Below are positions 5,286 through 21,621 of a DNA stretch of 64,000 bases, one piece after another; position 1 is the first letter of the stretch; each line of letters opens with the position of its first letter. The position numbers and the translations under genes are program-made. Source of the DNA: Pseudomonas rhizosphaerae (GTDB lineage Bacteria; Pseudomonadota; Gammaproteobacteria; Pseudomonadales; Pseudomonadaceae); the NCBI RefSeq assembly GCF_000761155.1, contig NZ_CP009533.1, positions 1,674,001-1,738,000 on the forward strand, given 5' to 3'. The notes beneath the pieces are model-generated. The model had not been told where the DNA came from and ran no database searches. It saw only the letters and a list, made by a program, of their open reading frames with translations.

Positions 5286-6674
5286 TCAAGGACAGCCGGG
5301 TGTTTTCAAAACTTCTTTGGAAGCCTCCTGAAGCATGTCCTTGAGTTCGATGGCGTCACGGCTCGCGTAGATCCGTCCCCCCGTGTTTTCCGCCATGCAA
5401 TTGGAAAGCGCGTTTTTACCGATATTGACAACATTGACCTTCAGCTTCGGCTGGTCTTGGGCAATACGTCGGGATACCGCACAGGCATCCTGCTGGCAGT
5501 TATCCTGGCCGTCGATGAACATCACGATGTAGGCATCGCGATTGCGTCCGTCGACTGTCGAAGCAGCTTGCGCCAAGCTTTCCGCCAAGGGCGTTCCGTA
5601 GTCGGCCCTCAAACCGTTTATGCCTTTGATCAGCTGTGATCGCTGCGGTGTGGGAAACAACCCGTAATCTGCGACTCTCCCACAGCCTTCGAATGCCATG
5701 AAGCGCATGTCGATCTGGGGCAGTAGGTTGTCGATCATTTTGGCCAGTGAAACTTTGGCAACGTCCAGCCGCGTGGGTTGGGTCAGTAGTGGCGCGACGC
5801 GAGGATCGCGAGGGTCTAGTCGGGCGCCGACCTCTCCGTACCATTGATCGTCCCTGGGCGAGGTTTTGACGTTTAGGTTCATCGAGCCGGAGGTGTCCAG
5901 CACTACGACGAATTGTGGCGGTATCGCGGGGTCTGCTGGTTTAGGGCAAGCCTTGGTTTGCTTCGTGTTCTCGATAGGTTTGGATTTTGGTACCGGCACA
6001 GGCACAGGTAAAGCTGGTTCAGGTTCAGGTTCAGGGATCGGCTCGGGTACCCCTTCAGGTAGAAGTTCAGGATCAGGTAACGGAACCGCCACTTGAGGCT
6101 GAACCATGGCAGCGGGTGTGGCTGGCACCGGCTCTGTGACCGGTGCGCGCAAAAACCACCACACAAGAAAAGCCAGTAGCAGCAAGGCCAGCGCGAGCAA
6201 CAGCCAAGGCCATAAGCGCCTGCGAACGGGGCTAGAGGCGATAACGGTCGTTGTGGCGGGTAACACCGGAGTCACCGGCTTGGGCTTCAACATATGCCAG
6301 CAGATTACCAGCGGCTCGCCATTCAGGCTGTAGAGATTGCCTGGTAATGGCTCGCCGATAAGGCTACGTAAGCTGGCCGCCGTGTCCGACTGGCCTTTGC
6401 TTTGTTGTTCATCGGCCACCCGTTCAAGCGAATGCTGGCGCTGCTCAAAGGTATGCAGTAGTTGACGCTGCTGACCCTCGTTCAAGGCGTTGAACGCTAT
6501 CGCCTGACCGCCCAGCTCCGTCCACCACTCAAGCACGTCACCGCTGCCTGTACGTGGAATGGCATACAGGCTGGCAACGTTGGGGGCAGCGTATTTGCGG
6601 ACGATCTCGAGCTTGGCGTCGAGTGCGGTCATGTCGCGCGCAGATAGGCTGGCATCTCTGATGACCCGCTGCAT
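5286..6674 (-). CDS. Transmembrane VWA protein with SrfA-like cytoplasmic domain (last gene of srf operon)
   Basis: A 462-residue protein. Residues 1-130 form a cytoplasmic domain that lines up by eye with the N-terminus of SrfA from the same operon: an F/Y-A-x-P segment, a W-W/Y segment, a Q-rich helix, then a strand ending GEPLVICWHM in this protein and GKPVLTFWGF in SrfA. A single membrane helix (155-175) and a proline/glutamate-rich linker (178-230) follow. After them is a periplasmic von Willebrand A domain with an intact MIDAS start, D260-T-S262-G-S264. The order cytoplasmic domain-TM-periplasmic VWA resembles T6SS kinase PpkA, but no kinase motifs are present. It lies 53 bases after the lipoprotein gene. 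Predicted role: periplasmic sensing or partner binding relayed to the SrfABC proteins. Confidence 0.75.
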   Translation of the reverse strand: MQRVIRDASLSARDMTALDAKLEIVRKYAAPNVASLYAIPRTGSGDVLEWWTELGGQAIAFNALNEGQQRQLLHTFEQRQHSLERVADEQQSKGQSDTAASLRSLIGEPLPGNLYSLNGEPLVICWHMLKPKPVTPVLPATTTVIASSPVRRRLWPWLLLALALLLLAFLVWWFLRAPVTEPVPATPAAMVQPQVAVPLPDPELLPEGVPEPIPEPEPEPALPVPVPVPKSKPIENTKQTKACPKPADPAIPPQFVVVLDTSGSMNLNVKTSPRDDQWYGEVGARLDPRDPRVAPLLTQPTRLDVAKVSLAKMIDNLLPQIDMRFMAFEGCGRVADYGLFPTPQRSQLIKGINGLRADYGTPLAESLAQAASTVDGRNRDAYIVMFIDGQDNCQQDACAVSRRIAQDQPKLKVNVVNIGKNALSNCMAENTGGRIYASRDAIELKDMLQEASKEVLKTPGCP

Positions 6675-6727
6675 TATGCTATCTCTTGCAAAAATTCAGA
6701 CGTCCCAGGCGGGGCGCTGGTTTGATT

Positions 6728-7237
6728 TTATTGGTCGAAGCCAAGGCTAAGCTGCAACTTGCTGACTTTCTTCTGCAGGGCTTTGAGCTCTTCTTGCTTG
6801 GCTGCCAGCTGCTGCGGATTGCTGCTCTGCGGCTGACTCTGGGCAGTTTGCAATTGGCTTTGAAGCGAGCTGATCTGTTTTTGCACGGACGTTTTATTAG
6901 CGTGTCGACTCTTGAGTGCTGAAAGCAGCTGTCCCAATGACTGGTTCAGTGACGCCTGAGCCTGTTGCTGTGCTTGCAGATCCTTGCGTGTCGCGGCCTG
7001 TTCGGCAGCAATGCTGTCGTAGACCCGTTTGAACATCGCGTTTTCATGGCGCGCAGCGATCAGTTCGTTTTCTTTACTTTTGACTTGATCACTGTATCCG
7101 CCGGTGTAATCGCAGTTCATCTTGGTGATCATGCTCACGTCACGATTGGTGGCGTCGCATGAGCCGGGAGCTGTAGCGCAACCGGAAAGCGCCCAGGCAC
7201 CTCCCAGGCAGACAAGCAAGCTAACGGTCGTATTCAT
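6728..7237 (-). CDS. Coiled-coil outer-membrane lipoprotein (srf operon)
   Basis: A 169-residue protein starting at the ATG at 7237, four bases after the previous gene's stop; the longer frame would overlap that gene and lose the signal peptide. The signal peptide ends in a lipobox, LSGC, with the lipidated cysteine at position 20 and alanine next, so it should go to the outer membrane. From residue 60 on it is almost entirely charged helix with Q- and S-rich heptads. I recognise no family. In position it corresponds to TagQ of the T6SS TagQRST module, but no sequence relation can be claimed. Confidence 0.65.
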   Translation of the reverse strand: MNTTVSLLVCLGGAWALSGCATAPGSCDATNRDVSMITKMNCDYTGGYSDQVKSKENELIAARHENAMFKRVYDSIAAEQAATRKDLQAQQQAQASLNQSLGQLLSALKSRHANKTSVQKQISSLQSQLQTAQSQPQSSNPQQLAAKQEELKALQKKVSKLQLSLGFDQ

Positions 7238-7241
7238 GAGG

Positions 7242-7967
7242 TCAACCCAGGGTGATAGCAGAACGTTGGCTGTACAGACCGTCGACTTCTTTCTGCAGCG
7301 CGGCGACCTTTTCATTCATTTTCAGAATGTTGATATCAACAGCCTTGAGCTCGGCACTGCTACCTTGCGCTCGCTCGGCATCGGCGACCTTGGTGTACTC
7401 AGTGACCTTGCCGCGCATGTTGCCCACCTCCTTACGCAGGTAAGTGATGTTCTCGTCAATGCTAGCGATGTCAGATTGCGCCTTGGCCTTGTCCAGCTTC
7501 TTCGCAATTATGTCGCGCTTGATCTGGGCGATACTCTGCTGGTCATCGCTGATGACCTGCTGTGCCACGGCCGTTCGAGCAACGACTTTGTCGGTATCAG
7601 CCTGAACATCCCGGGTGATAACCTGCAGCCGTTCAGTGGTATTGGCATACTGGCTGCGACGTTGGTCCAGGTAGTAGTTGGCGCCCATTGCTACGCCGCA
7701 CGCCGCTATACCGGCAACGACGGCACAGGCGGCCTTATTGCCTGAGTTGGACAGGGCGCAAGCCAGCACGCCAGCGCCAGCGGCGACTGCACAGGCCTGA
7801 TAGCCTGACTTGGTGAAGAATTCAGCGGTCGCTCCTTGCGTCAGACGCGGGTCTGGCGAATTGCCTATAAGGCTACTGCCTGTAGATGCACACCCGGTCA
7901 GCAGAATGCTGCCTGCCACGACAAAGCTGATCATCAGCTTGGAATGGAAACGCAGGCCTTGAGTCAT
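7242..7967 (-). CDS. Lipoprotein with glycine-zipper segment and coiled coil (srf operon)
   Basis: A 241-residue protein with a signal peptide and lipobox LLTGC (cysteine 26). A small-residue hydrophobic region (about 57-97, rich in Gly, Ala and Cys) looks like a glycine-zipper membrane or pore-type segment. Residues 105-235 are a long charged coiled coil. It lies 29 bases after the FGE-like gene and four before the second lipoprotein. Two consecutive lipoproteins with coiled coils suggest paired outer-membrane components that reach into the periplasm. Family not recognised. Confidence 0.65.
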   Translation of the reverse strand: MTQGLRFHSKLMISFVVAGSILLTGCASTGSSLIGNSPDPRLTQGATAEFFTKSGYQACAVAAGAGVLACALSNSGNKAACAVVAGIAACGVAMGANYYLDQRRSQYANTTERLQVITRDVQADTDKVVARTAVAQQVISDDQQSIAQIKRDIIAKKLDKAKAQSDIASIDENITYLRKEVGNMRGKVTEYTKVADAERAQGSSAELKAVDINILKMNEKVAALQKEVDGLYSQRSAITLG

Positions 7968-7996
7968 GGTGTAGCTCCTTGATGTGTGCTGATAGA

Positions 7997-9544
7997 TTAT
8001 TGCTTCACGGCTTTGCAGGCTGTTAGCCAGGCATCGGCATCGATTTTCTGTTTTTGCAGGAAGGTTTTCTGATTGCTCCAGTGGGCCTTCAGATAAGGCT
8101 TGAGCGCTTGCAGCTGCTTATTGCGATCCATGATTTCGTCCATGACCGGCACCTGTTTTTCCAGCAGCGGCTGGCCGTACAGAGACGCGGACTCCACCAG
8201 GCTGCTGGCATAATAGAGCCCGAGCTTGTGGACGCGGCTCTTCTGCTCGTCGAGCTTGGCTTTACGCATATCGCAAGTAGGATCTTTCTCGGAACCTTCA
8301 CAATTGAGCGCGTAATTTTTCTGCGTGAAGTCCAAGTACTGGCCATCATCGAGCATCTTGGTGCACAGGAATGCGCCAAGATTCAGGCTGGCACGTATAG
8401 CCTGATCACGATTTTCCTCCTGTAGAAGATTCGTCGCACGTAACTGATTTTCCAGTGCCTGAAGTTTTTCCTTGAGCGCTTTGTCATCGACGCTGGAAGC
8501 CAAACTGTTGAGCGCTTGAACGGTGCCTTTACCTTCCCCTTGAGCCGGCTCCTCGCTGCCCGTACCGAGGGTTTTCCAGCTGCTTTCTATTGCTTTGACA
8601 CGATCGCGAGAAGTCAGGGTTTGCGAAACCATGGCCAGTCTGAAACCTGTTGTCTTGCTTTTCATCTGGCCATCGGCGTTGTAGTACGGATCTTCCTGGC
8701 GCAACGAGGTGCGAATGTCGGCAGATGCGGTCAGGTAATTGCCGCCACGCACTACATAGCCGCCAGCCTGGCCGTGCTGACGATCCAGTTTGTTCAACCT
8801 GAACGGCTCGAACATCATCTCATCGGCATTGCCCAGCATGTCATGAAGGCCCAAAGGGTTTGGCTTGAGCAAACCTGTGAGCTGCAACTGACCATTCGAT
8901 GATTGAGACCCGGCGAACCACTCGTAAGCATTCATGTTTTCGGGCATCGGGTAGCGAGTGTCACGAAATTCTGCGGCGCTGACATCGACGCCACCTCGGG
9001 CAGCGAACTCCCATTCTATTTCGGTGGGCAGGCGCAGGAAACCTGCCGAGCCGTCCTCTTTGGGTAACTTGTCTACTGCATTCTTGCGCAGCCAGAGGTT
9101 ATATTTATCTGCTGCCTGCATCGCGTCGAGCCAGCTCACATTGACTTGCGGCAGGCGTAGCTTGTTGGAGGGTTCAGGGCACTTTTCATCCGTCAGCGCG
9201 CGGTATTGCAGCTGAGTCAGTTCGTACTTGGCCATCAAGTAGTAACGAGACTTGTCGGTTTTGGCACCGGTGAAACTGCCTGCGATGAACGCTGGGCGGG
9301 TCTGTTCCACGTAGCCATATTCAGCACCGTCCTGACCCACCTTGACCGGAAAGTCGTCCAGCGGTCCGGCAAGCGGGATATACGCCTTGCGAAACACCAT
9401 AGCTCCCTCGCATGGCATGGGTAAAATGACGTCTTCGTTGTCCGGCATGGGGTTGAATTGCTTTTCTTCCCAGGAAACCGCTGAGGCGTCGAGCCAGGGA
9501 ACCACTGTCAAAGGCAGCAGCAGGGCGATACGTCTAAAGTTCAC
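7997..9544 (-). CDS. Periplasmic formylglycine-enzyme-like (SUMF1/TagR-like) protein
   Basis: A 515-residue protein. I place the start at a GTG (9544) that overlaps the permease stop by 11 bases and gives a signal peptide; the longer frame is out-of-frame permease sequence. Residues 95-310 are an FGE-sulfatase/SUMF1 domain: the segments RLPTEIEWEFAARGG, NPLGLHDMLGN, RGGNY and GFRLA. Active FGEs have a cysteine in the 'GFRCA' motif; here it is leucine, so enzyme activity is unlikely. The C-terminal 200 residues are helical and not recognised. In T6SS loci the FGE-like TagR sits beside TagS/TagT and activates PpkA through its periplasmic part; the same gene neighbourhood is seen here. Confidence 0.75.
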   Translation of the reverse strand: MNFRRIALLLPLTVVPWLDASAVSWEEKQFNPMPDNEDVILPMPCEGAMVFRKAYIPLAGPLDDFPVKVGQDGAEYGYVEQTRPAFIAGSFTGAKTDKSRYYLMAKYELTQLQYRALTDEKCPEPSNKLRLPQVNVSWLDAMQAADKYNLWLRKNAVDKLPKEDGSAGFLRLPTEIEWEFAARGGVDVSAAEFRDTRYPMPENMNAYEWFAGSQSSNGQLQLTGLLKPNPLGLHDMLGNADEMMFEPFRLNKLDRQHGQAGGYVVRGGNYLTASADIRTSLRQEDPYYNADGQMKSKTTGFRLAMVSQTLTSRDRVKAIESSWKTLGTGSEEPAQGEGKGTVQALNSLASSVDDKALKEKLQALENQLRATNLLQEENRDQAIRASLNLGAFLCTKMLDDGQYLDFTQKNYALNCEGSEKDPTCDMRKAKLDEQKSRVHKLGLYYASSLVESASLYGQPLLEKQVPVMDEIMDRNKQLQALKPYLKAHWSNQKTFLQKQKIDADAWLTACKAVKQ

Positions 9545-10775
9545 GCAGACTCTCCGCAGGTTGAATGCCGATAGCGCGGACGGCACCGATGAGGGCGACC
9601 AAGACGGCCACCAGTAGGGACAGGAGCAATGCGGCAAAGCCGTGCCAAGGGGTAATATGGCAGGCGAAGGCCCCTGTGCTCTGACTGCTGCCGAGCACAT
9701 GGTCGAACAATCGACTGCCCACCAGATAGAACGCCAGTCCGCCAATGTAGCCGATCAGGCTCAGCACGATGGCCTGCAGGACCACGAACCCGGCCACCGC
9801 CGGGCTGCTGAACCCCAGCAGACGCAGGACAGCCAGGCTTTTGCGCTTGCGGTCGATATTGGCCAGAAATGCGCCGACCAGCGAGGCAATACAGCCGGTC
9901 AGCGCGGCGGCTGCGATCACTCCGAAAATCAGACTTAGCACATGGTTGATGGCTTTAACGTTCTCGATGTCGGCCAGTCGGCTCGATGTCTGAATATTCT
10001 GCGCCATCAGCCAGTGCTCGAGCGCGGCTACGCTGTCGATATTTCGCGCATACACCCTTGCCCGCGCGTACAGCGGTTGCAGGTTGTCCAAAGGCTTACC
10101 GGATTCCAGGCCGAATGCCGGGACCCGATAACCGTCTCGAAAGTGCTCGAGCGACAGCAGCAGAGAAGGTGCGATGAAACCTGCCGCGCGACCGAAACGC
10201 GAGGCATCCAGGATTGCGACGACGTTGAGGTTGATTTCACCCAGCTCGCTGATGCCGTCCAGGCGGCGCGCTGCCCGTAGTCGAACACTGCTGCCGACCT
10301 CGGCCTGCAGGCGCTGTGCGGCGGACGCGCTGAGGATCAAATCATTACCCTGCAAGGCGCTGGCTGGCATGTTCAGCAGAGGGTCGCCAGCCTGAGTTGG
10401 CAGAATCTCTGCATTTTCGACAAAACGTTGCAGGCCGATCAGCAGGTCAGCCTGGGTGTTGAGCGAACGGGTCTGGCCAATGGCGAAACCTGTCTCGGGC
10501 ACCTGTTGCAAGCGCGTGATCCAGGTGTCGTCGAAGCTGCCGCTGCTCAGCATTTTCACTTCCAGATTGCGCGGGTCGCGCAGGAGGTCATCCTGCAACT
10601 GGCTCACCACGCCGTGTTTGAGCCCGAACAAGAGCAGTAACGGTGCAATAACCGCGACCAGAGACGCTGCGATGCAGAGCGAAACCTTGCGGTCGTGCCA
10701 TAAATCCTCGACCGCAAGCTTGCAGAGCAGCCGCAGCCGATCAATCCAGCGGTTCAAAACGCGTCTCTCCTGCAT
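9534..10775 (-). CDS. FtsX/MacB-type ABC transporter permease (TagS-like)
   Basis: About 413 residues from the ATG at 10775 (a GTG at 10760 is also possible). One N-terminal membrane helix precedes a large periplasmic loop, and three helices form a C-terminal FtsX-like domain. This is the four-helix layout of LolC/MacB-class permeases that act on periplasmic or outer-membrane substrates. Its start overlaps the ATPase gene by about 35 bases, so the two are probably translationally coupled. It resembles TagS by layout and by lying between TagT-like and TagR-like genes. Confidence 0.8.
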   Translation of the reverse strand: MQERRVLNRWIDRLRLLCKLAVEDLWHDRKVSLCIAASLVAVIAPLLLLFGLKHGVVSQLQDDLLRDPRNLEVKMLSSGSFDDTWITRLQQVPETGFAIGQTRSLNTQADLLIGLQRFVENAEILPTQAGDPLLNMPASALQGNDLILSASAAQRLQAEVGSSVRLRAARRLDGISELGEINLNVVAILDASRFGRAAGFIAPSLLLSLEHFRDGYRVPAFGLESGKPLDNLQPLYARARVYARNIDSVAALEHWLMAQNIQTSSRLADIENVKAINHVLSLIFGVIAAAALTGCIASLVGAFLANIDRKRKSLAVLRLLGFSSPAVAGFVVLQAIVLSLIGYIGGLAFYLVGSRLFDHVLGSSQSTGAFACHITPWHGFAALLLSLLVAVLVALIGAVRAIGIQPAESLREL

Positions 10776-11439
10776 GGCTGACGGCGTCAATACGCCTGAG
10801 GCCGAAATCCCTGACCAGTGCCCAGTCATGGGACACCACCAAGGCGCTCAGGCCCAGTTCTGCTACCAGACTCAACAGCAGCTCGAACAAACGCTGGGCA
10901 CTGTACGGGTCAAGCGCCGCAGTCGGCTCATCGGCCAATAGCAACTGTGGCTCATGCGCGATGGCCCGTACGCAGGCTACCCGCTGTCGCTCGCCGATGG
11001 ATAGGGCATGTGGAAGTTTGTCCAGCAAAGCATCGAGTCGTAGCGCGGCGATTGCCCGTTCCACGTGAGTGCTGTCTGCATTCATGCCCAGCAGGCGGCG
11101 CGGCAGACTGATGTTGTCGCGCACTTTCAGAAACGGCAGCAGGCCGCCGCTTTGCAGAATGAAGCCCAGATCCCGAGAACGGACCTGTGTCAGGGCGGCC
11201 TGATCATCGGTTGCAAGCATTTGTCCGACGTCCAATCCATCGCGCCCAAGACGAAAGCGGCCCAGCTGCGAAGGCATTAACAGCAAGCCGATCGCTTCCA
11301 GCAAGGTACTTTTGCCGCAGCCGCTTTCTCCGGTGATAGCAAAGATTTCACCCTTGCCGATCTGCAGGCTGGGCAGGTGTACGCGGTGCGCTTGTGCGCC
11401 GTCTCCACGTTGCACAAGCAAATTTTGGATTTCGAGCAT
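10741..11439 (-). CDS. ABC transporter ATP-binding protein (LolD/TagT-like)
   Basis: A 232-residue nucleotide-binding domain: Walker A GESGCGKST (about 37-45), a signature LSIGERQRV that deviates from LSGGQ, Walker B LLLADEPT and the H-loop VVSHDW. Size and sequence are typical of the LolD/MacB/TagT group, which power mechanotransmission rather than import. It overlaps the permease gene. Likely role: ATPase of a cytoplasm-to-periplasm signalling or lipoprotein-handling unit in the srf operon. Confidence 0.85.
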   Translation of the reverse strand: MLEIQNLLVQRGDGAQAHRVHLPSLQIGKGEIFAITGESGCGKSTLLEAIGLLLMPSQLGRFRLGRDGLDVGQMLATDDQAALTQVRSRDLGFILQSGGLLPFLKVRDNISLPRRLLGMNADSTHVERAIAALRLDALLDKLPHALSIGERQRVACVRAIAHEPQLLLADEPTAALDPYSAQRLFELLLSLVAELGLSALVVSHDWALVRDFGLRRIDAVSHAGETRFEPLD

Positions 11440-11455
11440 GGGCTGAACGGTCTCG

Positions 11456-13450
11456 CTACGGCATCATTTCAAGAGGCACGGGATAAACGTTATCTCTTGC
11501 ATCGCTATCCTTGGCCAGCGCGACCCAACGGTCGACGTCGGCGTTGTAGCGCTGGTAGTGCCGAAGCTTGGTGCTTAAAGTACGGATAAATTTTTCCTGC
11601 GCGAGTCCGTCCCAGCTTTTCCATGTGTCCTCATCCAGATTGAGTACTTCACTGTGATAGGGCAGGTCTTCGAGGTATTCACCCAAAACGCCCAAGTCTG
11701 CGACTTTGGTGTTGTTGTTCTGCTTAAGCTGGTTGGGATCGGTGCCCATGGTCGCGGCCACTGATCGCAGCTTTTCGAACATGTCGGTGGGCGAAATCAG
11801 CCCTTCATTGGCGGCGTCCAGAATCTGCTTCATGACGTCGCTGAGGTCACTGAGCTGGGATTTGGTCAGCAATACGCGTACGTCGGTGGCGGGAATGTTC
11901 TGCTTGATCAGATCGCGGTCGGTGATCCATGCCTTGAACACCGGCGGCGCCTGGGATTGGTTCTTCTCACCCAGGTAGGCCAGCTGCATGGCGTAGCCTA
12001 TAAGGGCGGCGTCTTCCAGCATCTTCTTGTCGTCAGGGTCTTGCTTGGCATTCGCCGCGCTGCCAATCGCCTCGTCGCCCATGTAGGCAGCTTTGACTTG
12101 CGAGGTAATGGCAGTCGCCAAAGAGTCCACTTTGCGCCCAAACTCTTGGACGTCGCCTGCGTTTACCGGGTAATACAGCGAGGTGTTGGTGCCAGGGTAG
12201 GTCGATAGATTACGGTATTGCGCTTCCGCCCGGGCATGATCCTTGATACCGGCCGGAGTCTTGAGGTGCAGCGTGTAAACGGCAACCCCGGGGTTGGCTG
12301 CCTCGAGGCGCACCTGATCTGCGCTCAGACCCGTATTGGAAAGTTTGTCGGTACCTTCTAGCGCGCCTGCATCTGTGATCAGTACCACATAGCGTGCACC
12401 GAACTGGCTCCAGTCCACTTTGTCGATGCTGTGCATGACGCCTGCGTAAGCGTCTTCATCGAACGCCCCGCTCGAGACCTTCGCCTGCTTAAGATCAGCA
12501 ACCTTAGCCAAGAAATCTGCGCTGTCCTGCACTTTGTTAGGGTCTGCATACATTTTGCTTACGTATTCAAGGCCCGGAACCGCTTTGGTGCTGGAGCGGA
12601 ACGCGACCAAACCAAATTTCACCTGCTTGCCGAGATTTTCTTTTTCGATCTGTTTATAGACTTTGCTAATGGCTTCACGAGTCCGGTCAATGTACGGATC
12701 CATCGAGATGGTGGAGTCGATGACAAATACCACAGCCGCGCTGAATTCCTTCAGCTGGCTCGGGGCAGGGGAGTTGGTAGTTCCCGTTGCGCCAGTAGCA
12801 GTTCCTGGACCAGCGCCAGCGGCCGCTGATTGTTCATCGGTCTTGCTGACGGAGGCAACGTTAAGGATGCGTGTGCGAAAACCCGCTTCGGTCATCACCT
12901 CCTCACCACTCAATACCGGCAGCAAGTAGAACTGCTTTTGCATATCGACGAAATATTCGGGTTCCTGCGCCAGTACGCCCGGCGCTTGCACGCCTTGTTT
13001 GAGCTTGGCACGCAAGGGCGCCACTTTACTCACCGGATCCGGCGCATCAAGTATGCCTTCCAGCGTTGGCCGCTCTTTGAAGAACAGAAGACGATCACGA
13101 TTGGCCGGGTTGGTGAAGGCCAGGGTCAGTTGCATTTTCCATTCGACGGTACATGTCGAGGGAAGCCAGCCAACTGTTTTACCGAAGCTGTCAGCCCCGA
13201 CCTTGAGCCACTGCGCATTAGCCGCCTGCGCTCGCTCGTAGACATAAAAACGGCTAAAGGTCGGTTGCACGATGCCATCGCTGGTACCCGCCGCAGCGCT
13301 TAGCTGACAGCCCGGCGTGGTCAGCACCCGTTGGAACAGGGTTTTCTTGCCCTCTTGAATCAGCGGTTTGTCGGCAGCATGGGCCCATGGGTCGATAGCG
13401 CATAGGGTCAACAGCGCTACGCTGCCCAGCGTACGTCGAAATCCACTCAT
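11456..13450 (-). CDS. Periplasmic SH3-like/VWA-domain protein (srf operon)
   Basis: A 664-residue secreted protein with a signal peptide ending at AHA (about residue 25). Residues 50-105 resemble a bacterial SH3-like domain (the W-L-K-V-G...G-W-L-P pattern). Residues 238-460 form a VWA domain with the MIDAS-type start D245-S-T247-I-S249 and the strand YVVLITDAG. The remaining 200 residues are helical and unassigned. Its start overlaps the stop of the preceding membrane protein by four bases (ATGA), so translation is coupled. It probably works in the periplasm as a scaffold or ligand-binding partner. It is the second VWA protein of the operon and has no membrane anchor. Confidence 0.72.
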   Translation of the reverse strand: MSGFRRTLGSVALLTLCAIDPWAHAADKPLIQEGKKTLFQRVLTTPGCQLSAAAGTSDGIVQPTFSRFYVYERAQAANAQWLKVGADSFGKTVGWLPSTCTVEWKMQLTLAFTNPANRDRLLFFKERPTLEGILDAPDPVSKVAPLRAKLKQGVQAPGVLAQEPEYFVDMQKQFYLLPVLSGEEVMTEAGFRTRILNVASVSKTDEQSAAAGAGPGTATGATGTTNSPAPSQLKEFSAAVVFVIDSTISMDPYIDRTREAISKVYKQIEKENLGKQVKFGLVAFRSSTKAVPGLEYVSKMYADPNKVQDSADFLAKVADLKQAKVSSGAFDEDAYAGVMHSIDKVDWSQFGARYVVLITDAGALEGTDKLSNTGLSADQVRLEAANPGVAVYTLHLKTPAGIKDHARAEAQYRNLSTYPGTNTSLYYPVNAGDVQEFGRKVDSLATAITSQVKAAYMGDEAIGSAANAKQDPDDKKMLEDAALIGYAMQLAYLGEKNQSQAPPVFKAWITDRDLIKQNIPATDVRVLLTKSQLSDLSDVMKQILDAANEGLISPTDMFEKLRSVAATMGTDPNQLKQNNNTKVADLGVLGEYLEDLPYHSEVLNLDEDTWKSWDGLAQEKFIRTLSTKLRHYQRYNADVDRWVALAKDSDARDNVYPVPLEMMP

Positions 13451-14484
13451 GGCTTGAGTTCCTCGAAACGTTGCTTGGCATCTGCATTGTTCGGGTCAAG
13501 CCCCAGGATGGTCTCGTACCAATAGGCAGCGGTGGCTTTATCAGGCTCGGCGAAGCACTCGCTTGGCTGATGATATTTGGGGTCGTATTCGTGGGCGTAG
13601 GCCGTTGCGATCATCAGGTCGCCTGCCTGTGAACGGTTGGCATACAGCCGCTGTGCGACTCCGCAGTGCTTGCTCGCCTTTGCGGTCTCGATGATCTTCA
13701 GCAATTCGGCACTGGCTGGCGACTGCTTGATGCATGCCTGAACGAATGCCAGCTCAGGTTGGGTGTTCATGCTTTCCAGTGTGCACGCAGCGCCCGCCGT
13801 TGGAGTCCCGGGCTCGACAGCGGCTGCTGGCACTAAAGGCACGGGCGTATCGGCTTTTTTATGGAAGAAAAACCAGGCGCCTGCAGCCGCGAGTATCAAT
13901 ACCAGCAGACCAAGGATGATCGGCAGCAATTGGCTCTTCTTTGGCGGTACCGGCCCGGCAGCTCGCTCCAACGGTTCGCTATGAATCGGTTCGTGCTGCA
14001 GCTCGACTTCTGGTGCGTTGGATGCGTCGAGCCCTGGCACAGCAGAGATATCCAGCGGCTCGCCTGGCACCGTAGGGATAACCAGATCGGTGCCGCCGTA
14101 GATGCCTCGGGTTTGGCCACCGGCGCTGGATGCCAGCAATCCAATGCCGGGACGGATCACGCCACGGTCACTGAACCCTGGTCCCTGTTCGCGCAGCTCG
14201 ATCTGGAAGTTGGAGTTGGCACCGCCTTCGAGCAACGGATCGACTACGTCGGGGCCGACCAGGGTTTCCAGCGATTCACCGCTGGCGCCTTCGCTGAAAT
14301 GTGGCACCTTGAACCAGAATGGATTGCTGCTCCACTGCTTGTGTTCCTGCAGGTAAAACCTGTCCTGGTTGCGCTGGATGGAAAACTCCAGACGCTCGTG
14401 GACGCCTTGCCATTTCTTCACCGTCAGGCAGGCTTGTCCTGGCACGCCAGGTTCCAGGCCCAGTAGATCAACTCGAATCGGCAT
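13447..14484 (-). CDS. Single-pass inner-membrane protein with Sel1/TPR-like periplasmic tail (srf operon)
   Basis: A 345-residue protein. Residues 1-125 form a folded cytoplasmic domain that I do not recognise. A linker follows, then one membrane helix (185-207) and a periplasmic C-terminus (about 235-345) with helix pairs such as 'AYWYETILGLDPNNADAKQRF', which resembles TPR/Sel1 repeats and has four or five cysteines. It starts three bases after srfC and overlaps the next gene by four. Together with SrfA and the terminal VWA protein it makes three bitopic proteins of the same orientation, which could link cytoplasmic SrfB/SrfC to the periplasm. Confidence 0.65.
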   Translation of the reverse strand: MPIRVDLLGLEPGVPGQACLTVKKWQGVHERLEFSIQRNQDRFYLQEHKQWSSNPFWFKVPHFSEGASGESLETLVGPDVVDPLLEGGANSNFQIELREQGPGFSDRGVIRPGIGLLASSAGGQTRGIYGGTDLVIPTVPGEPLDISAVPGLDASNAPEVELQHEPIHSEPLERAAGPVPPKKSQLLPIILGLLVLILAAAGAWFFFHKKADTPVPLVPAAAVEPGTPTAGAACTLESMNTQPELAFVQACIKQSPASAELLKIIETAKASKHCGVAQRLYANRSQAGDLMIATAYAHEYDPKYHQPSECFAEPDKATAAYWYETILGLDPNNADAKQRFEELKP

Positions 14485-14487
14485 CGC

Positions 14488-17202
14488 TTATCTCGCTTTC
14501 AACGCGGCGAGCACGTGGCCCAGCCGTTCATTTTGTTCGGAAGTGATTTCCCGGCCTGCGCTGTGACCGGCATTGCCCAAGGTGAGCGCTGCCAGACCTG
14601 ATAGCCAGTCGCCGACGAACAATTTGGCCTGGTTGGCTGGCTGCGCGGGCAGAATCGGCAGTCGGCCCTGCTCCACATCGGCATAAAATGCATAGAGGTG
14701 GTCTTTGCTGCCCACCAGACTTTTCGGACGCTGTGCCAGGGGCGTCTGAATAAAGCCGAACCACGACACGAAATCACCCAGCACCAGTTGAACCTCAAGG
14801 ACCTGGCGTTCCACCAGTTGATCGCGGCGTGCCCCGCTCTGGGCGCGCTTCAATACGGCTTTGGCCAGTTGTCCTGGAACATCCTGTCGGTAAGCGGCAG
14901 TGATCAGTTCGTCGGCCACCGCTTCGATGATTGGTTTGGTCAGACCCAGCAGGTTCAGCAGGCTCTGCCGATTGGCCAATTCGCGCAGATGAGCGATCCA
15001 GGCGTTGAACACAGCCTTGGCGAAGCGGTGATCGGTGCCTTCCGATTCCGGTGCGACCGACGACGACTGTGGAGCGGCAGCCGTATCTTCCGGTGCATCG
15101 AAAGCGGCGCTGAAATCGGCGAAGTCGAACCCGCCACTGTTGCCGTAGAGGCTGGCCGGCGGGGTGTCGAGTGCGACGTTCTGGGTGATGGGTGCGCTGT
15201 GTTCCTCATAAATGCCGCTGAGATAAAGATCACGCACGCCGTCGCCAGGCAATTGCAGGTTGTCGATCAACTCGCCGACGATTGCCTGATTCCTGCCCAC
15301 GTGTTGCAGGATCGACTGGGCCTGGCTGCGTTTTGCGGCCATGGCGCCGTGACCGTCGGATTGATACCAGCTGCTCAGGCCGTGAGTGGTGAGGTCTTCC
15401 AGGCACTCAGTCAGCTGGTCGCGAATGCGTGACAGCTTGAACTCGGTATTAGCGACATCCTTGAAGCTTTCGCTGAAGCGCTTGATGCCGCCATCGTTGA
15501 TTTGCAGCAGCGCCGCCCACGCCTGCGCGGGCTGGTAGATGTGCTTGCCGACCAACGTATTTGCACTAAAGGTCTGACCCAGCAGATCGATGCGCTCACG
15601 GGAGCGTTCGAGGATGTGCAACTCGTCGCCCGTTTGGGCATGCAGCTCGATGAAGGGTGTTTCCATGCGCGGCTTGCGCACCAGATACGTATTCTGGAAG
15701 GGCATTCCAGCCCAGTCGGTCATCCAGGAGAAGCTGCCAAAGCGCTCGATCATGGTCAGCTTGACCATACCTTCCCAGCCCGCATCGAGCATATTTGCTG
15801 GCGTGTTCAGTGCGCCGGAGATACGTTTGTCGAGCATCGTCAGGGCCCAGATCAGGCCAATGCCGGAGCGCTTGCCGCGATCCTGAGCGTTCACGCCCTG
15901 GGTCTTCTCGATCCAGCGGGTCAGCACAGGGCCGACATCCGGCACGTCGCTCTGTTTGTCCGATGCAGTGCACACCACCAGGGCGTTCATTTCCTGGCAA
16001 TCGGTGTAGCGCTCGAACAGGTAAGCGACTTTGCCGCGCAACAACAGTTGAGACACCACATTGTCGTCGGCGCCGGTCGAGTCCTTGAGTTCGCGCAGTT
16101 TCATCCGACCGCGATAACCTGGGAAGTCGAGCAAATCGACGGTGTTGACCACCGCATCCTTGGGCTCATTGATCAGGCAGAACGTCATCTCGGTCGTCAA
16201 CGCAGCCAACTGCGCTACGGTGACCGACGCGCTGGCGCCCAGTTGTCCGTCGCGCTGAGGCCTGACGTCAATCGACAGGTCGGCGCTGGTGTCGAACCGG
16301 TTGAGTATATCGACGTTCATGATGCTGTCGGTCTGGCTGTACTCGCCGTACCCGTCACGACTGACCAATGCAGCAAGCGGCGCGAACACAGCATGTGGGT
16401 GACCCAGTTTGGCCAGGGCCGCGCTGAGTTTTTCGTACACGCGGGTCAACGCGGGCTGTTCGCCCCACAAGATCGAGAACAGCTCGGCACGCTGCTGAAT
16501 GCTCAAGCGTGGTGCCAGCCGCAGCACATGCGGCCAGTACAGGTGCTGCAGTTTCTTCACCGAGCCTTTGAAGTTGTCGTTGAGGTAGTCCCACAGCGAA
16601 ACCACGTTGTCGGCGCTGACACCAGGCACATCTACGGGGCTTTCCCGGCCTTCGACGGCCTTGAGGATCCGCTGGATGCGCGCTTCGTCGATTTCGTATT
16701 CGATCTGCTCAAGGTCGAAATCCTTGAACCACGCATTGGCCAGGATCTTGGCGATTTCAATCTCGCTGAACAGCTTGAGCTCTACCGGAAACGCCGGATC
16801 GGGGCTCGGCAACGCCGCGCGGCTGAAACGCGTGACCAGGCCGGTGGCCTCCTTGCCACCGCCCACCGGATTGATATGGGCGATGAAGTCCAGGGTCTCG
16901 GCACCGAAGCGCGTTTCCAATTTACCGCTCTCGCCAGCAGCCAACGCTGAAATCAGGTACGACTTGCCCGCCTGAGACAGACCGAAAAAGCCGATGGTCA
17001 TGGGGGTACAGGCTACCCGCTCCAGATTGCGGGCTAGGTTGCGGGCGCGATGCAGACGCACGTTCAGGTTGTCCGCTTCACCGTCCAGACGCGGTGCATC
17101 AGGGCGCGTCTGCTCGATCCACTGCAACGCCTGGCCTGCACCGTGATGCACTGCAGCCCAGCTGGCCGCCAGCTCGGATTGTTGTTTGCTCAGGTCGCTC
17201 AT
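14488..17202 (-). CDS. srfC: SrfC-family dynamin-like GTPase
   Basis: A 904-residue protein of the 'putative virulence factor SrfC' family. The ATG at 17202 overlaps the srfB stop by four bases. A P-loop GLSQAGKS (74-81) and a G3-type DFPG (359-362) preceded by a hydrophobic strand are the signature of a dynamin-superfamily GTPase; long helical regions follow, as in membrane-remodelling dynamin-like proteins. There is no signal peptide or clear membrane helix, so it should be cytoplasmic. srfABC were named in Salmonella as SsrB-regulated factors, and toxin roles have been proposed for them. GTPase activity and membrane binding here are inferred. Confidence 0.87.
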   Translation of the reverse strand: MSDLSKQQSELAASWAAVHHGAGQALQWIEQTRPDAPRLDGEADNLNVRLHRARNLARNLERVACTPMTIGFFGLSQAGKSYLISALAAGESGKLETRFGAETLDFIAHINPVGGGKEATGLVTRFSRAALPSPDPAFPVELKLFSEIEIAKILANAWFKDFDLEQIEYEIDEARIQRILKAVEGRESPVDVPGVSADNVVSLWDYLNDNFKGSVKKLQHLYWPHVLRLAPRLSIQQRAELFSILWGEQPALTRVYEKLSAALAKLGHPHAVFAPLAALVSRDGYGEYSQTDSIMNVDILNRFDTSADLSIDVRPQRDGQLGASASVTVAQLAALTTEMTFCLINEPKDAVVNTVDLLDFPGYRGRMKLRELKDSTGADDNVVSQLLLRGKVAYLFERYTDCQEMNALVVCTASDKQSDVPDVGPVLTRWIEKTQGVNAQDRGKRSGIGLIWALTMLDKRISGALNTPANMLDAGWEGMVKLTMIERFGSFSWMTDWAGMPFQNTYLVRKPRMETPFIELHAQTGDELHILERSRERIDLLGQTFSANTLVGKHIYQPAQAWAALLQINDGGIKRFSESFKDVANTEFKLSRIRDQLTECLEDLTTHGLSSWYQSDGHGAMAAKRSQAQSILQHVGRNQAIVGELIDNLQLPGDGVRDLYLSGIYEEHSAPITQNVALDTPPASLYGNSGGFDFADFSAAFDAPEDTAAAPQSSSVAPESEGTDHRFAKAVFNAWIAHLRELANRQSLLNLLGLTKPIIEAVADELITAAYRQDVPGQLAKAVLKRAQSGARRDQLVERQVLEVQLVLGDFVSWFGFIQTPLAQRPKSLVGSKDHLYAFYADVEQGRLPILPAQPANQAKLFVGDWLSGLAALTLGNAGHSAGREITSEQNERLGHVLAALKAR

Positions 17203-20200
17203 TTGCGTTTCACACTTCCACTGTCGAGCCAATACTTGGTCTCGCTCAGGCCTGCGTCGAGCATGGTGTTGAGTTCCAGCTCCAGGTCGCTGCGCGGGTT
17301 GAAGTTGACGTTGTTGCTGTTGGATTCAATGCCCGCCACCGACAATCGGTCACTGACCAGCCCGTGCTTGCGGGTGTGCTTGTCGGGGGCTTTGACTTCG
17401 AACCGCACCTTGAGCAGAGGCGCCTGGTTGTCGGTCCCAACGGCCCTGGAAAACTTGTCGCGACCTGCCGCGGTGAAACGCAGTGTGTACAGCGGCGATG
17501 CAGACCAGCGCTCGGTGGCGAGCTGGCGAAAGCCCAGGCGCAGATCGCCACGCATTTCAAGCTGTGGACTGTCGGCGTCGTCACCGATGCCCACCAGTGG
17601 CAGTTGTATCTTGCCGTCCTGGGACTGAATATCGCGGTACAGCACATCGGCGTCTTTGATGACGTTGTTCAAGTCGATCACGCCAATATGCTTGACCGTC
17701 GAGTACGGCTTGAGCGCCGAAGACCGGAAATAGAAATTCGGCAGGCTGTGGTTGGCACATAGCAGGCACAGCATTGCCCCTACCGAAGCCGTACTTTTCG
17801 GATCGTCGATCAGGCCGCTCTTGTGAAACGGATACCAGCCGCCGGTCCGGTAGTTCTGCAGTGGCAAGATGCGTCCGGGAGGTAGCGGAAGCATTTTGCG
17901 TATGAACGCTTGCACACCAGGCAACCGCGACGGTCGACCGGTCAGCAGTAGCACGTCACAGGGATAGTGAAAAATCACTTCGCACAGCGCGCCAAGTGTT
18001 TTGGTGATGTTGATCTGTTCGTTGAGAAATGCCGCGTGCAGTTTCTGCAAGTCGAAGCTGATTGGCGCGTCGAACAGCTCGAATGGACTCTGTACACCGA
18101 CTTCCCGGCGCACGGCACTGTGCACGTATTCAAGTACGGTCTGGCTAATAGCCGTCTCGCCTAAAAGCTCACGATAGCTATATACGCGAACCTCCAGCGG
18201 CGTTTCCGGATCGTACTGCTCGTATGCCTTGAGCAGCGCCAGGCCCAGGGGCGTGAAGACTTGCAGATTCAATTGCTGGCGCAGAATCATGTCTTGCGCG
18301 CTGACCGATTCATCGCCGCACAGACGTGACATCAACGAGCGAGGAGATTTAACCCCGGCGCTGAGCAGAGCCTTTTCGAAGCTGGGCAGCACGAAATCCT
18401 GGATCACATCGAGCAAGATATCGTCGCCTGCCACTTTGAAGCCGTCCCGAAAGCGCTGTTCCGGCACAATGTGGACATTGCTGCCGCTGCCCGAGCTACC
18501 GGCACGGTCCAGATGGTAGTCGGTTATCACCAGGTCGGTGGTGCCACCGCCGATGTCGATAGTGGCTACGGTAATGCGTTCGCGATCGGTTTTGTCTGGA
18601 CGGGCGAGGGTGTCGAAAAACTCTTCAGGGTGTCCCGCAAAATTCTCGTTGATCTCGGTGTACAGGTACACGAGTTGACCGCACGACGCTTCGTCCCACT
18701 CTACGCGGACACTAGGTACCGGTGTGCGCGGAGGGGTGAGCTCATCGGTCTGCGGATCTTCTTCGCCGCTGTGCCAGCCCATGCTTTTCCAGACCAGACC
18801 AATGGCTTGTTGCACGCGCTCGTTGAGAATGCTGCGCTCTGCCTGAGGCATGCCTGGCGGCACGGTCAGGGTAATGCTGTTGAGCTGACGCGGCATACGG
18901 GTATTGCCTTGACGCGAACGCTGCGCGGGGCTGTTGATCTGCGACAGTGCCTGCGCAAGGACCTCGGCGAGCATGAACGTCATCAACGAACTGCGCGAGT
19001 AACGTGGCATGAACACCGGCAAGCGATCGTCTTCATCCAGCGTGTACAAGGCCTCGCCGGTTTCGTTGATCAGATGCGAAAACGGTGCGGCGGTGGCATA
19101 GGGCTCGTTGTCGGTCTTGATGTACGAGCAGTTGAAGCGCCAGCCATGGCCGTACGGATTTTCGTCCCAGAGGTAGCGTTTCGGGCTGGAAAGCCCGGTC
19201 GACCCTTCGGTTCCGCGGCGGCGACTGGCCAGGCGACTGGCTTCACTGCCCACACGGGCAATCGTTGCCCATTGGAACGCATCGTGGCGTCCGCTTTTGA
19301 CCGAACAGTGGTCTTTGCCGAAGTACGCCTGAGAGAACTCGACGCGACTCTCGAACGGCTGGTTGTAGGTGTGCTCCGGCGTGATGAGGTCTCGCAGCTC
19401 AAGCACGTAATTCTGCTTGAGCCCGGAACCGGCCTGACCGTGGTTCTCGATCAGGATGCCGCAGGTACGCGAGTTGCCGACATCCAGCACCAGATCCACC
19501 TGGATCGGCTTGACCTGACCCCTGCTGTCGTTGGCGACCACTTTCAGCTCGGGAATCTCCACGCGGGCCTTGTTTTGGTGACGTGCATGCGTCGCGCTAC
19601 CGAGCAGGCTCAGCACGTTCAGGTAATGCGCGAGGTGATGACCGGCGCGAATGTCGATGTCCAGTTCTTCGCGGGAGCGCTGCGTGTTGCCCTCGTTGAA
19701 GACCTCCAGCAGCCATTCGTTGACCCAACCCTGCGCCAGGAACCATCGCGTTTCGCGCGCTTTGGTTGCCAGCTTGAAAGAGACCCCGGAGCTAACGTCC
19801 TCTTCGTTCGGGGCCAGATAGGCGGTGCCGTCGCGTTTAGGCATCACGCGGCTGTCGAACGCCAGGGTCAGACGGTGACTGTGGCCGTCGATGTCGGGTG
19901 CCGGCAGCTTGACGACACGCATCCTGGCCCAGTTGGTAGGGCCTTCATCGAAGCGGTGTGGTTGCATGAAGCGAAAGAAAGGCAGCGGCAACCACAGACC
20001 GTTCAGCAATTCCAGACTGCTGCGCATGTCGATGCTGAACACCGGTTTGGTCTTCTCGATTCTCTCGGGTTCTGGTTCGTAGAAGAAAAAGTCCTTTTCT
20101 TCGTCGTAGACCAATCGACAGATGAGCCCGTCGGCCATTGGCGCGAATTCGCCGGCCTGCTCTTTGCGCACGTCGAGGCGCAACGCGAAATCCAGGAACT

Positions 20201-20261
20201 GAACACCCGTGTCGCTGACCAGTGAAACGGTATCTTCGAATTGTGTAACTTCAGGCAACAT
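17199..20261 (-). CDS. srfB: SrfB-family protein with Hsp70/actin-type ATPase fold
   Basis: A 1020-residue protein of the SrfB family. Three nucleotide-binding motifs of the Hsp70/actin/StbA superfamily can be seen in order: phosphate-1 LVLDVGNSRTCG (257-268), phosphate-2 TIDIGGGTTD (567-576) and an adenosine-type LLLTGRPSRLPGV (771-783). An N-terminal 240-residue domain and a C-terminal beta-rich part flank them. It is cytoplasmic by prediction. The gene is 16 bases after srfA and overlaps srfC. A coupled actin-like ATPase and dynamin-like GTPase suggest a filament- or chaperone-assisted assembly. The family is established; the mechanism is inference. Confidence 0.87.
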   Translation of the reverse strand: MLPEVTQFEDTVSLVSDTGVQFLDFALRLDVRKEQAGEFAPMADGLICRLVYDEEKDFFFYEPEPERIEKTKPVFSIDMRSSLELLNGLWLPLPFFRFMQPHRFDEGPTNWARMRVVKLPAPDIDGHSHRLTLAFDSRVMPKRDGTAYLAPNEEDVSSGVSFKLATKARETRWFLAQGWVNEWLLEVFNEGNTQRSREELDIDIRAGHHLAHYLNVLSLLGSATHARHQNKARVEIPELKVVANDSRGQVKPIQVDLVLDVGNSRTCGILIENHGQAGSGLKQNYVLELRDLITPEHTYNQPFESRVEFSQAYFGKDHCSVKSGRHDAFQWATIARVGSEASRLASRRRGTEGSTGLSSPKRYLWDENPYGHGWRFNCSYIKTDNEPYATAAPFSHLINETGEALYTLDEDDRLPVFMPRYSRSSLMTFMLAEVLAQALSQINSPAQRSRQGNTRMPRQLNSITLTVPPGMPQAERSILNERVQQAIGLVWKSMGWHSGEEDPQTDELTPPRTPVPSVRVEWDEASCGQLVYLYTEINENFAGHPEEFFDTLARPDKTDRERITVATIDIGGGTTDLVITDYHLDRAGSSGSGSNVHIVPEQRFRDGFKVAGDDILLDVIQDFVLPSFEKALLSAGVKSPRSLMSRLCGDESVSAQDMILRQQLNLQVFTPLGLALLKAYEQYDPETPLEVRVYSYRELLGETAISQTVLEYVHSAVRREVGVQSPFELFDAPISFDLQKLHAAFLNEQINITKTLGALCEVIFHYPCDVLLLTGRPSRLPGVQAFIRKMLPLPPGRILPLQNYRTGGWYPFHKSGLIDDPKSTASVGAMLCLLCANHSLPNFYFRSSALKPYSTVKHIGVIDLNNVIKDADVLYRDIQSQDGKIQLPLVGIGDDADSPQLEMRGDLRLGFRQLATERWSASPLYTLRFTAAGRDKFSRAVGTDNQAPLLKVRFEVKAPDKHTRKHGLVSDRLSVAGIESNSNNVNFNPRSDLELELNTMLDAGLSETKYWLDSGSVKRK

Positions 20262-20277
20262 GTCAGTTCTTCCAGTC

Positions 20278-21621
20278 TTATTCGGTCAACTGCCGCATGG
20301 ACATGGGGAATTTCTCCGCGCCATAACCGCCGGTGCAATCAGCGATGTTCTGGGCACCTTTCCCACATTCGATCTTAGGCATGTCATAGGTGCTGCCGTC
20401 GCCACAGGTGGCCTGGGCGCTGCTGTTGATGGACAAGTTTCCGCCACTCATCGCCGCGTTGACCGGCCCGGAACAACTGATGCCGTTTGCTTGGCGCACA
20501 GTGACTTCACCTTTGCCGTCTTCGAACTTGTATTCCAGTCGCAACGGTCGACCAGTGCGCCGATCTTGAATACCGGCGCCGGCACGGTAGTGGCCGTCGA
20601 GGAAGTCTGCAGTACCGTCTTTCACGTGCTCAGGGATGCTCAAGGAGGCAGCCGGCTTTTCGGCTGACGTTTCCCCTGGCTGGCGTTCGGGCTTGCCGGC
20701 GGGCTCGTCGGCTGGCGTCGGTTGCGTTGGCGTTTGCGCGGCCGCATCTTGCGGGGCTACCGACGCCGGCACCTGGGGCTCGATGCCGGCGTCTTTTTGC
20801 GGATCAGGCGTAGCAAGGCTGGCGTTATCGCCCGCGGCGCCGCTACTGCCGAGTACGGGTGCGCTCATCCCGCTATCGGTGTTGAGCGTTGCCGTGGGCA
20901 GGCCGGAAGGGGAGGACACCTCTGGCAACGCAGCGGCGGGCACCCCTGGAATTGCCAACGTCGGCACGCAGCTGCGCAACCCAAAAAGCAACAGCAGCAA
21001 CAGCAGCAGTAGAAGTGGTAGCAGCCACCACCAGCGCCGCCACCAGGATCGGCGAACCTGTACGGGCGGCTCCGCCTCGACGACAGGCGCGACCGGAGGG
21101 GAAGGTGCCACGGCTGGCGTCACGGTTTCTTCAGGCGGGTACAGGCAACGAAGCGGGCTACGATCAGGGTCGGCGTTGGCGTGTTGAAAGCCCCAGAACG
21201 TCAAGACTGGCTTGCCTGCGACCAGGTAGACGAAGTGTTGATCCGGAAAATGGATGACGCGTTTGAGCAGTTTGCCAAATACGGCTTTATCGCCCTGTTG
21301 CTCAACCGGGTCTGGCCCCAAAAAACGTTCGCTCAGTTGCATGAGCGCTACGTTGAGCTTCTCCAGCTGCGACCTGGCAGGCGCGCGTTCATCTTCAGTT
21401 GCAGCACTCCAGGGAATGACATCGCCTTCGATGCTGCTGTACCAGTCGATTTTGTTGCCCACCTCATCGCTTTGAGGGACTGCGAAGTGGTCGACCAGCT
21501 CGGGGTTCTTTCGCCGAATCGCTTCAAGTAATTGCAGTGCAGCCCGGTACACGGGCCGGCCCGTTTCGCCAAGCGCAGTGAATGACTCGCTCTTGCCACT
21601 ACGTAATAGTGCGCCTTGCAT
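20278..21621 (-). CDS. srfA: SrfA-family bitopic membrane protein
   Basis: A 447-residue protein, first gene of the operon, with a good ribosome binding site (GGAGCAAGG) before the ATG. Residues 1-150 are a cytoplasmic domain like that of the operon's last protein. One membrane helix (196-216), built around a run of leucines encoded by repeated CAG/GTT-type triplets, is followed by a low-complexity Pro/Ala linker. The C-terminal domain (about 345-447) is periplasmic, rich in glycine and cysteine, and matches the conserved SrfA C-terminus in general appearance. It likely recruits SrfB or SrfC to the membrane. Start and operon order fit the known srfABC arrangement. Confidence 0.8.
   Translation of the reverse strand: MQGALLRSGKSESFTALGETGRPVYRAALQLLEAIRRKNPELVDHFAVPQSDEVGNKIDWYSSIEGDVIPWSAATEDERAPARSQLEKLNVALMQLSERFLGPDPVEQQGDKAVFGKLLKRVIHFPDQHFVYLVAGKPVLTFWGFQHANADPDRSPLRCLYPPEETVTPAVAPSPPVAPVVEAEPPVQVRRSWWRRWWWLLPLLLLLLLLLLFGLRSCVPTLAIPGVPAAALPEVSSPSGLPTATLNTDSGMSAPVLGSSGAAGDNASLATPDPQKDAGIEPQVPASVAPQDAAAQTPTQPTPADEPAGKPERQPGETSAEKPAASLSIPEHVKDGTADFLDGHYRAGAGIQDRRTGRPLRLEYKFEDGKGEVTVRQANGISCSGPVNAAMSGGNLSINSSAQATCGDGSTYDMPKIECGKGAQNIADCTGGYGAEKFPMSMRQLTE

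Follow-up and report, generated by a model that had tools for sequence, protein, structure and literature searches.

An eleven-gene operon of Pseudomonas rhizosphaerae couples srfA, srfB and srfC to a block of genes related to the TagQRST-PpkA sensor of type VI secretion systems (T6SS), and its products may form a response to envelope damage in which the TagQRST-type block and a kinase-less PpkA periplasmic protein signal via single-pass SrfA-type proteins to SrfB and SrfC. We put this reading of the complete form of SrfABC slightly below an even chance; the evidence points to a response to damage of the envelope and not to a secretion system. The window, the whole stretch of DNA analysed, comprises 64,000 nucleotides (contig NZ_CP009533.1, positions 1,674,001 to 1,738,000), and the operon occupies positions 21621–5286 on its minus strand, on which all of the genes described below lie. 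It encodes, in order, SrfA, SrfB, SrfC, a 345-residue single-pass protein (D345), the protein of gene 5 (V664), an ABC ATPase, an FtsX-type permease, an FGE-fold protein, two lipoproteins, and a protein that combines a SrfA-like domain with a VWA domain (SrfA-VWA). An earlier note on this DNA, made from the sequence alone (the original prediction), had described eleven genes on one strand with gaps of 53 bases or less or with overlaps, and the coordinates of the open reading frames (ORFs) confirm that every one is co-directional and so spaced.

On sequence comparison, the resemblance of the block to the Tag proteins is one of homology. The comparison set consisted of six genomes of the window's family, each with a full-length PpkA homologue and with TssC no more than 15 kb away. 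In all six, every match of the FGE-fold protein (7997..9544, with a GTG start at 9544; PF03781, FGE-sulfatase, 2.9e-32) falls in the tagR gene, with 35–39% identity in the main pieces, and the best match of the permease (9534..10829; PF02687, 3.4e-12) is TagS, with E values of 6.6e-62 to 6.5e-54; the single further match of the permease in these genomes has an E value of 3e-4. The TagR and TagS assignments were checked against the loci as read in five genomes and made by position alone in G290. Gene 5 (11456..13450; 664 residues) matches residues 428–1043 of PpkA, which is the whole periplasmic half, with 39% identity over 642 aligned positions (E 2e-140). The compared PpkA carries a kinase domain (PF00069, 7.4e-46), in keeping with the kinase-VWA layout described for PpkA (PMC1262709; here and below, papers are cited for the available portions of their text), whereas profile scans gave no Pkinase match among the eleven operon proteins, gene 5 included. 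The gene 5 protein has a Sec-type N terminus and a VWA domain with the sequence DSTIS at residue 245, which scores 23.0 bits against a Pfam cut-off of 23.8; its only match by sequence to solved structures is a weak one to a VWA domain (E 0.42). The order PpkA-TagT-TagS-TagR-TagQ in ten loci that we term T6SS-type (L096–L100 and L104–L108; TssC was checked in the genomes of five) is that of window genes 5 to 9, and the kinase signature is present in nine of these loci, the tenth being interrupted by a contig end. The TagT-like ATPase (10741..11439; PF00005, ABC_tran, 3e-24) has the same position as the T6SS gene, which its profile reaches at 252–299 bits in the ten loci, a range to be read with the likeness of ABC ATPases to one another in mind. 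The profile made from srf loci reaches TagQ, in the right position in these ten loci, at 31–58 bits; the TagQ-like lipoprotein of the window (7242..7967; lipobox LTGC, next residue A) matches the NCBI model NF041250 weakly, at 22.5 bits against a cut-off of 300.

A generic LolCDE or sulfatase-modifying identity for these proteins was rejected. The ABC ATPase scores 129.1 bits against curated LolD (cut-off 307.75) and the permease 15.5 bits against curated LolC (cut-off 473), no cysteine occurs in the aligned FGE segment of 10 of 10 proteins, so that the catalytic pair of a true FGE, at the site where we take it to lie, is missing, and the best matches are TagR and TagS, with which the original prediction had grouped the FGE-fold protein and the permease. 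Among solved structures the FGE profile matches FGE-fold proteins, the best being a Treponema variable protein and PorK/GldK. The original prediction had also taken the last gene (5286..6674) for the PpkA-like VWA protein of the operon. That candidate was rejected: because gene 5 matches PpkA residues 428–1043 and the last gene is SrfA-type, gene 5, whose VWA domain had been overlooked, takes the place of gene 11 as the PpkA counterpart. The last gene does encode a transmembrane (TM)-like segment (residues 157–175) followed, as described, by a VWA domain (DTSGS; the best match, VWA_2 at 1.8e-5 and 25.8 bits, is just below the Pfam cut-off of 27), and gave no kinase match in profile scans, but the SrfA-family character of its N-domain (NF040486, E 1.4e-9 on residues 23–127) had escaped notice. 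Its paralogy with SrfA rests on this family profile together with the locus profiles, because the direct BLASTP comparison (E 0.20) is too weak by itself.

With TagQRST-PpkA of the P. aeruginosa H1-T6SS the operon shares the gene order and homologues of TagS, TagR and the complete periplasmic part of PpkA; it also has a putative TagT and a lipoprotein that resembles TagQ. In contrast to that system, the window's block has no kinase domain, is linked to srfABC, is accompanied by SrfA-VWA, D345 and a second lipoprotein, and stands in a genome with no TssB or TssC match. The absence of T6SS core genes from the window, as originally noted, extends to the whole genome, in which neither TssB (PF05591) nor TssC (PF05943) has a match; the TssB search found its target in both of two T6SS genomes used as a control. 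In a sample of the phylum, neither protein has a match in 7 of 13 block-bearing genomes (the window's included and G378 counted), and the other six have TssC. Family profile scans of the eleven operon genes revealed no recognisable secretion channel.

The linkage of the block to srfABC was followed in several samples. PF07520, the SrfB family, was found in 27 of 397 genomes of the phylum, in 26 of them above the cut-off; the remaining genome (G168; 21.1 bits, the sole weak match in its context) was dropped. The 26 genomes contain 27 srfB loci, that of the window included; G345 holds two, one plain and one full. Gene 5 is present with the ABC ATPase, permease and FGE-fold genes in 12 of the 27 (counting G114, in which they are split over two contigs), and nine of these 12 also have both lipoprotein genes, which G039, G373 and G387 do not. 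Of the other loci, that of G378 has gene 5, the ABC ATPase and the permease with the FGE-fold gene undetected, that of G134 has only D345, and 13 are plain srfABC. In the G134 locus (L051), D345, here ending in a Sel1 repeat, comes after srfABC and precedes a thiolase, with no sensor block in the stretch; the locus may possibly represent an intermediate or a separate loss of the block. The idea that the block always travels with srfABC is borne out for numerous families within the window's class, as well as in a second class of the phylum, but not for the 13 of 27 phylum-sample loci without any block gene.

A set of named loci, the best 80 of 382 found with gene 5, is biased to close relatives, and at least two of its members appear to duplicate the sampled genomes G376 and G023. 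All 80 contain srfB, srfC, D345 and the ABC ATPase, permease and FGE-fold genes, and a TagQ-type gene is visible in the fetched stretch of 64. They are mostly from Pseudomonas, with others from Stutzerimonas, Halopseudomonas, Aeromonas, Vreelandella, Bordetella, Alcaligenes and several Enterobacterales; a tandem pair of SrfA-VWA genes closes the operon in ten (L155, L157–L161 and others). In the class of G350, gene 5 is matched in 19 of 289 genomes, and among 17 newly fetched loci ten are srf-linked, two are on short contigs (in one, L209, the 2.8 kb that precede D345 show no srfC), two are T6SS loci with a separate kinase gene, two are tubulin-linked and one is unassigned. In the family of G350 the match occurs in 23 of 246 genomes; among 20 fetched loci, 13 have both srfB and srfC, one cut by a contig end has a piece of srfC, two show a kinase-like ORF next to gene 5, one has a TIR protein and two are unassigned, and two matches of G806 fall outside the loci examined. 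Some srf genes are possibly broken: L163 has two srfB ORFs, L236, also of this family, has only a weak srfC piece with srfB missing, and L048 has a short srfC ORF; all three were left unmended.

SrfB (17199..20261; PF07520, 1366.5 bits) and SrfC (14488..17232; PF10139, 1032.3 bits) match their families, and their models have the folds foreseen in the original prediction, which had described an actin/Hsp70-type ATPase and a dynamin-like GTPase. The SrfB model has an Hsp70/actin-type fold and that of SrfC matches the G domain and helical bundle of bacterial dynamin-like proteins, each assigned at superfamily level; SrfB is therefore predicted to be an Hsp70-like ATPase and SrfC a dynamin-like GTPase. 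The proteins that the SrfC model resembles in these two parts include BDLP, SynDLP, IniA, LeoA and the mitofusins, but by sequence no dynamin is found among the ten solved chains matched by SrfC up to an E value of 10, and SrfB matches no solved structure up to an E value of 1. The SrfC alignment contains the sequences GLSQAGKS, DLLDFPG and LTMLDK, which we take to be the G1, G3 and G4 motifs. SrfA (20278..21621; NF040486, 8.3e-125) has an N-domain followed by a TM-like segment at residues 201–219 by hydropathy, with the N terminus inside by charge, so that its C-domain is probably periplasmic. In plain loci 12 of 13 SrfA ORFs have such a segment, as do 179 of 185 ORFs of the SrfA family in the remaining loci. 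D345 (13447..14484), which is conserved 3' of srfC, has a TM-like segment at residues 189–207, and the window's copy gave no family match in Pfam and NCBIfam profile scans.

As an envelope-damage response, the complete system would operate in four steps. A disturbance of the outer membrane would be detected by the outer membrane lipoproteins and the FGE-fold protein, aided by the TagTS-type ABC pair, and the gene 5 VWA protein would relay the signal through the periplasm. Because gene 5 has neither a kinase nor a TM segment, the relay would have to use the single-pass proteins SrfA, D345 and SrfA-VWA, which may pass the signal over the inner membrane, and SrfB and SrfC might then assemble at the site and, as we infer from their modelled folds, remodel or seal the inner membrane. 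The input is proposed, by analogy, to be the same outer membrane damage as for the T6SS homologue. TagQRST-PpkA of P. aeruginosa senses such damage (PMC11881912), TagR modulates PpkA via the PpkA C-terminal domain (PMC3224232), which is the part retained here as gene 5, and T6SS baseplate assembly requires TagQ and TagR (PMC6657622). In further support of this reading, the three Srf proteins of Xenorhabdus co-precipitate (PMC6950479).

The plain loci appear to be a reduced form of this system. In the SrfB tree (67 rows out of 117 SrfB sequences, midpoint root, short search; L048 and L051 treated as linked loci), the 13 plain loci form one side of a single branch with an approximate likelihood ratio support (SH-aLRT) of 100, beside block-bearing loci of the same family. 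Among the 117 SrfC sequences compared, all 102 from block-linked loci retain both the P-loop and the DxxDxPG motif (101 under the strict pattern; L183 has GASQVGKS), whereas of the 13 from plain loci three retain both, one the P-loop alone and nine neither; of the last two rows, L051 is intact and the short ORF of L048 leaves the second motif unread. These 102 are made up of 80 named loci, 12 from the phylum sample and 10 from the class sample, with many near relatives among them, and L223–L242 were outside this count. Since the plain loci form one clade, the motif loss counts as one event, and the pattern suggests that the SrfC GTPase was lost after the loss of the sensor. The window has srfA, srfB and srfC adjacent and in the order of the Enterobacteriaceae operons of Salmonella and Xenorhabdus, which qualifies it as a SrfABC operon; it differs from the 13 plain loci of the sample, which have no sensor block after srfC and in nine cases a SrfC without either GTPase motif. 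This bears on a possible but unlikely alternative, in which the block senses the state of the envelope, SrfB and SrfC act as an envelope-remodelling ATPase/GTPase pair, and the output is motility on surfaces or the organisation of the cell surface. A Salmonella srfC mutant swarms poorly, and loss of the operon, which is controlled by FlhDC, affects swarming only (PMC4219756); because the SrfC motifs of the plain form are mostly degenerate in our sample, outside which the Salmonella locus itself lies, this phenotype may not carry over.

A reading of SrfABC as a tripartite toxin or set of effectors that is secreted, its release being controlled by the Tag-like block, is in our estimate quite unlikely. 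Xenorhabdus SrfABC is cytotoxic to HeLa cells, whether expressed inside them or added, and its operon adjoins T6SS-control genes (PMC6950479), Salmonella SrfA is listed as an effector and SrfB and SrfC as putative effectors (PMC11942329, which in its available text ascribes no function to SrfB and SrfC), and a triggering of SrfC export by PpkA was proposed in 2013 (PMC3608642). However, the predicted Hsp70-type and dynamin-type folds, the TM-like segment in most SrfA-family proteins, the genomes that carry the block with neither TssB nor TssC matched, and the lack of a recognisable secretion channel among the eleven genes all argue against a secreted set.

Homologues of the block also occur with other partners. 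In L221 (5582–8620) and L222 (5496–8564), a Tubulin_2 protein of ~1015 residues (PF13809, 1.9e-56 and 5.8e-57) is encoded upstream of gene 5, and srf genes were not found in these stretches; a protein with a start that looks like a zinc ribbon by eye is also encoded upstream of the block in both. In L101 (12741–15585) and L241 (11124–14321), which are from two genera of one family, a kinase-less PpkA/TagTSRQ block is immediately preceded by genes for a TIR protein (TIR_2, 7.6e-15 in L101; homologue in L241 at 376 bits) and two small proteins, and a trypsin-like protease is encoded downstream of the block. In L218 a PP2C phosphatase is found together with a separate kinase, and L219 has TssK. 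Four further loci (L240, L242, L220 and L102) have the block without a recognised srf, kinase, TIR or tubulin partner; the trypsin-like protease is kept in L240 and L242, and a peptidase S41 is found in L102. In L238 and L239 the order is rearranged, with ABC ATPase, permease and FGE-fold genes followed by the kinase-like ORF and then by the gene 5 homologue. On a tree of the module (81 rows, named loci thinned, midpoint root; L209, L212 and L236 unlabelled), six partner labels require five changes, the minimum possible, which suggests that the partners of the block are stable; branch support is 32 for the srf group and 50 for the TIR group, and the midpoint-rooted tree does not give a direction of transfer between T6SS and srf. 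An anti-phage or anti-competitor defence, in which the module senses that phage or T6SS has breached the envelope and SrfBC act at the spot, is as unlikely as the toxin reading: it draws on the occurrence of this block with TIR and tubulin-like partners, on the patchy distribution of srfB (two of 14 genomes of the genus) and on the G+C content of the operon (0.582 versus 0.621 for the window), but PADLOC models matched the ABC ATPase only among ten operon proteins scanned, and a known defence system was rejected on that ground.

The intergenic distances of the window operon, in operon order and with overlaps negative, are 16, −34, 3, −4, 16, −89, −212, 29, −74 and 53 bp. The overlap of 212 bp is an artefact of an over-long ORF with a TTG start for the FGE-fold protein; the GTG at 9544 gives a protein of 515 residues with a Sec-type N terminus and an overlap with the permease gene of 11 bp. 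The second lipoprotein (6728..7315; lipobox LSGC, next residue A) more likely starts at the internal ATG at residue 27. It is conserved among the loci and has only weak matches of coiled-coil type; NCBIfam profiles were run on the other ten operon proteins. Scans of the operon for promoters and terminators gave nothing above shuffled expectation, so its ends are not fixed by those scans.

The srf-tag neighbourhood has been in print since 2013 (PMC3608642), which qualifies the original claim of a distinct system: the occurrence of the block in genomes with neither TssB nor TssC matched supports it, whereas the association itself had already been described. In the host-associated Deltaproteobacteria of that account, srfABC is likewise associated with tagQRST and ppkA, with T6SS machinery in one genome only; unlike the window, their neighbourhood also includes a Hap-like and a LigA-like gene. 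Absent from the available text of this account are the lack of a kinase, the paralogue of SrfA, the predicted folds and the other partners. In the literature searched, from which subscription papers were mostly absent, the available text held no statement of a kinase-less PpkA homologue, a SrfA-VWA paralogue, the SrfB and SrfC folds, a reduction of plain srfABC, or TIR and tubulin partners; PMC3608642 was the only paper there to bring together at least three of srfB, srfC, TagQ and TagR, and the only one concerned with srf among the matches listed for dynamin or Hsp70 combined with srf. The linkage of srf to tag genes is known already, and the corrected parts list, predicted folds, reduction and exchange of partners are additions to it. 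The srfABC-tag system is real and well conserved, and its function is what we infer.

SrfABC has hitherto been called a virulence factor or toxin without a mechanism, and its sensor context together with the likely ATPase and GTPase effectors makes the question directly testable in pseudomonads. The 'T6SS' sensor TagQRST is suggested to be a broader signalling block. More tentatively than for the envelope-damage response itself, the PpkA-periplasmic/TagTSRQ block could be a general sensor of outer membrane damage with exchangeable outputs, namely T6SS via a fused or separate kinase, membrane repair by SrfABC with its Hsp70-like and dynamin-like proteins, and tubulin-like and TIR proteins; in that case the plain srfABC 'virulence operon' would represent the reduced remnant of a bacterial self-repair system and not a dedicated toxin.

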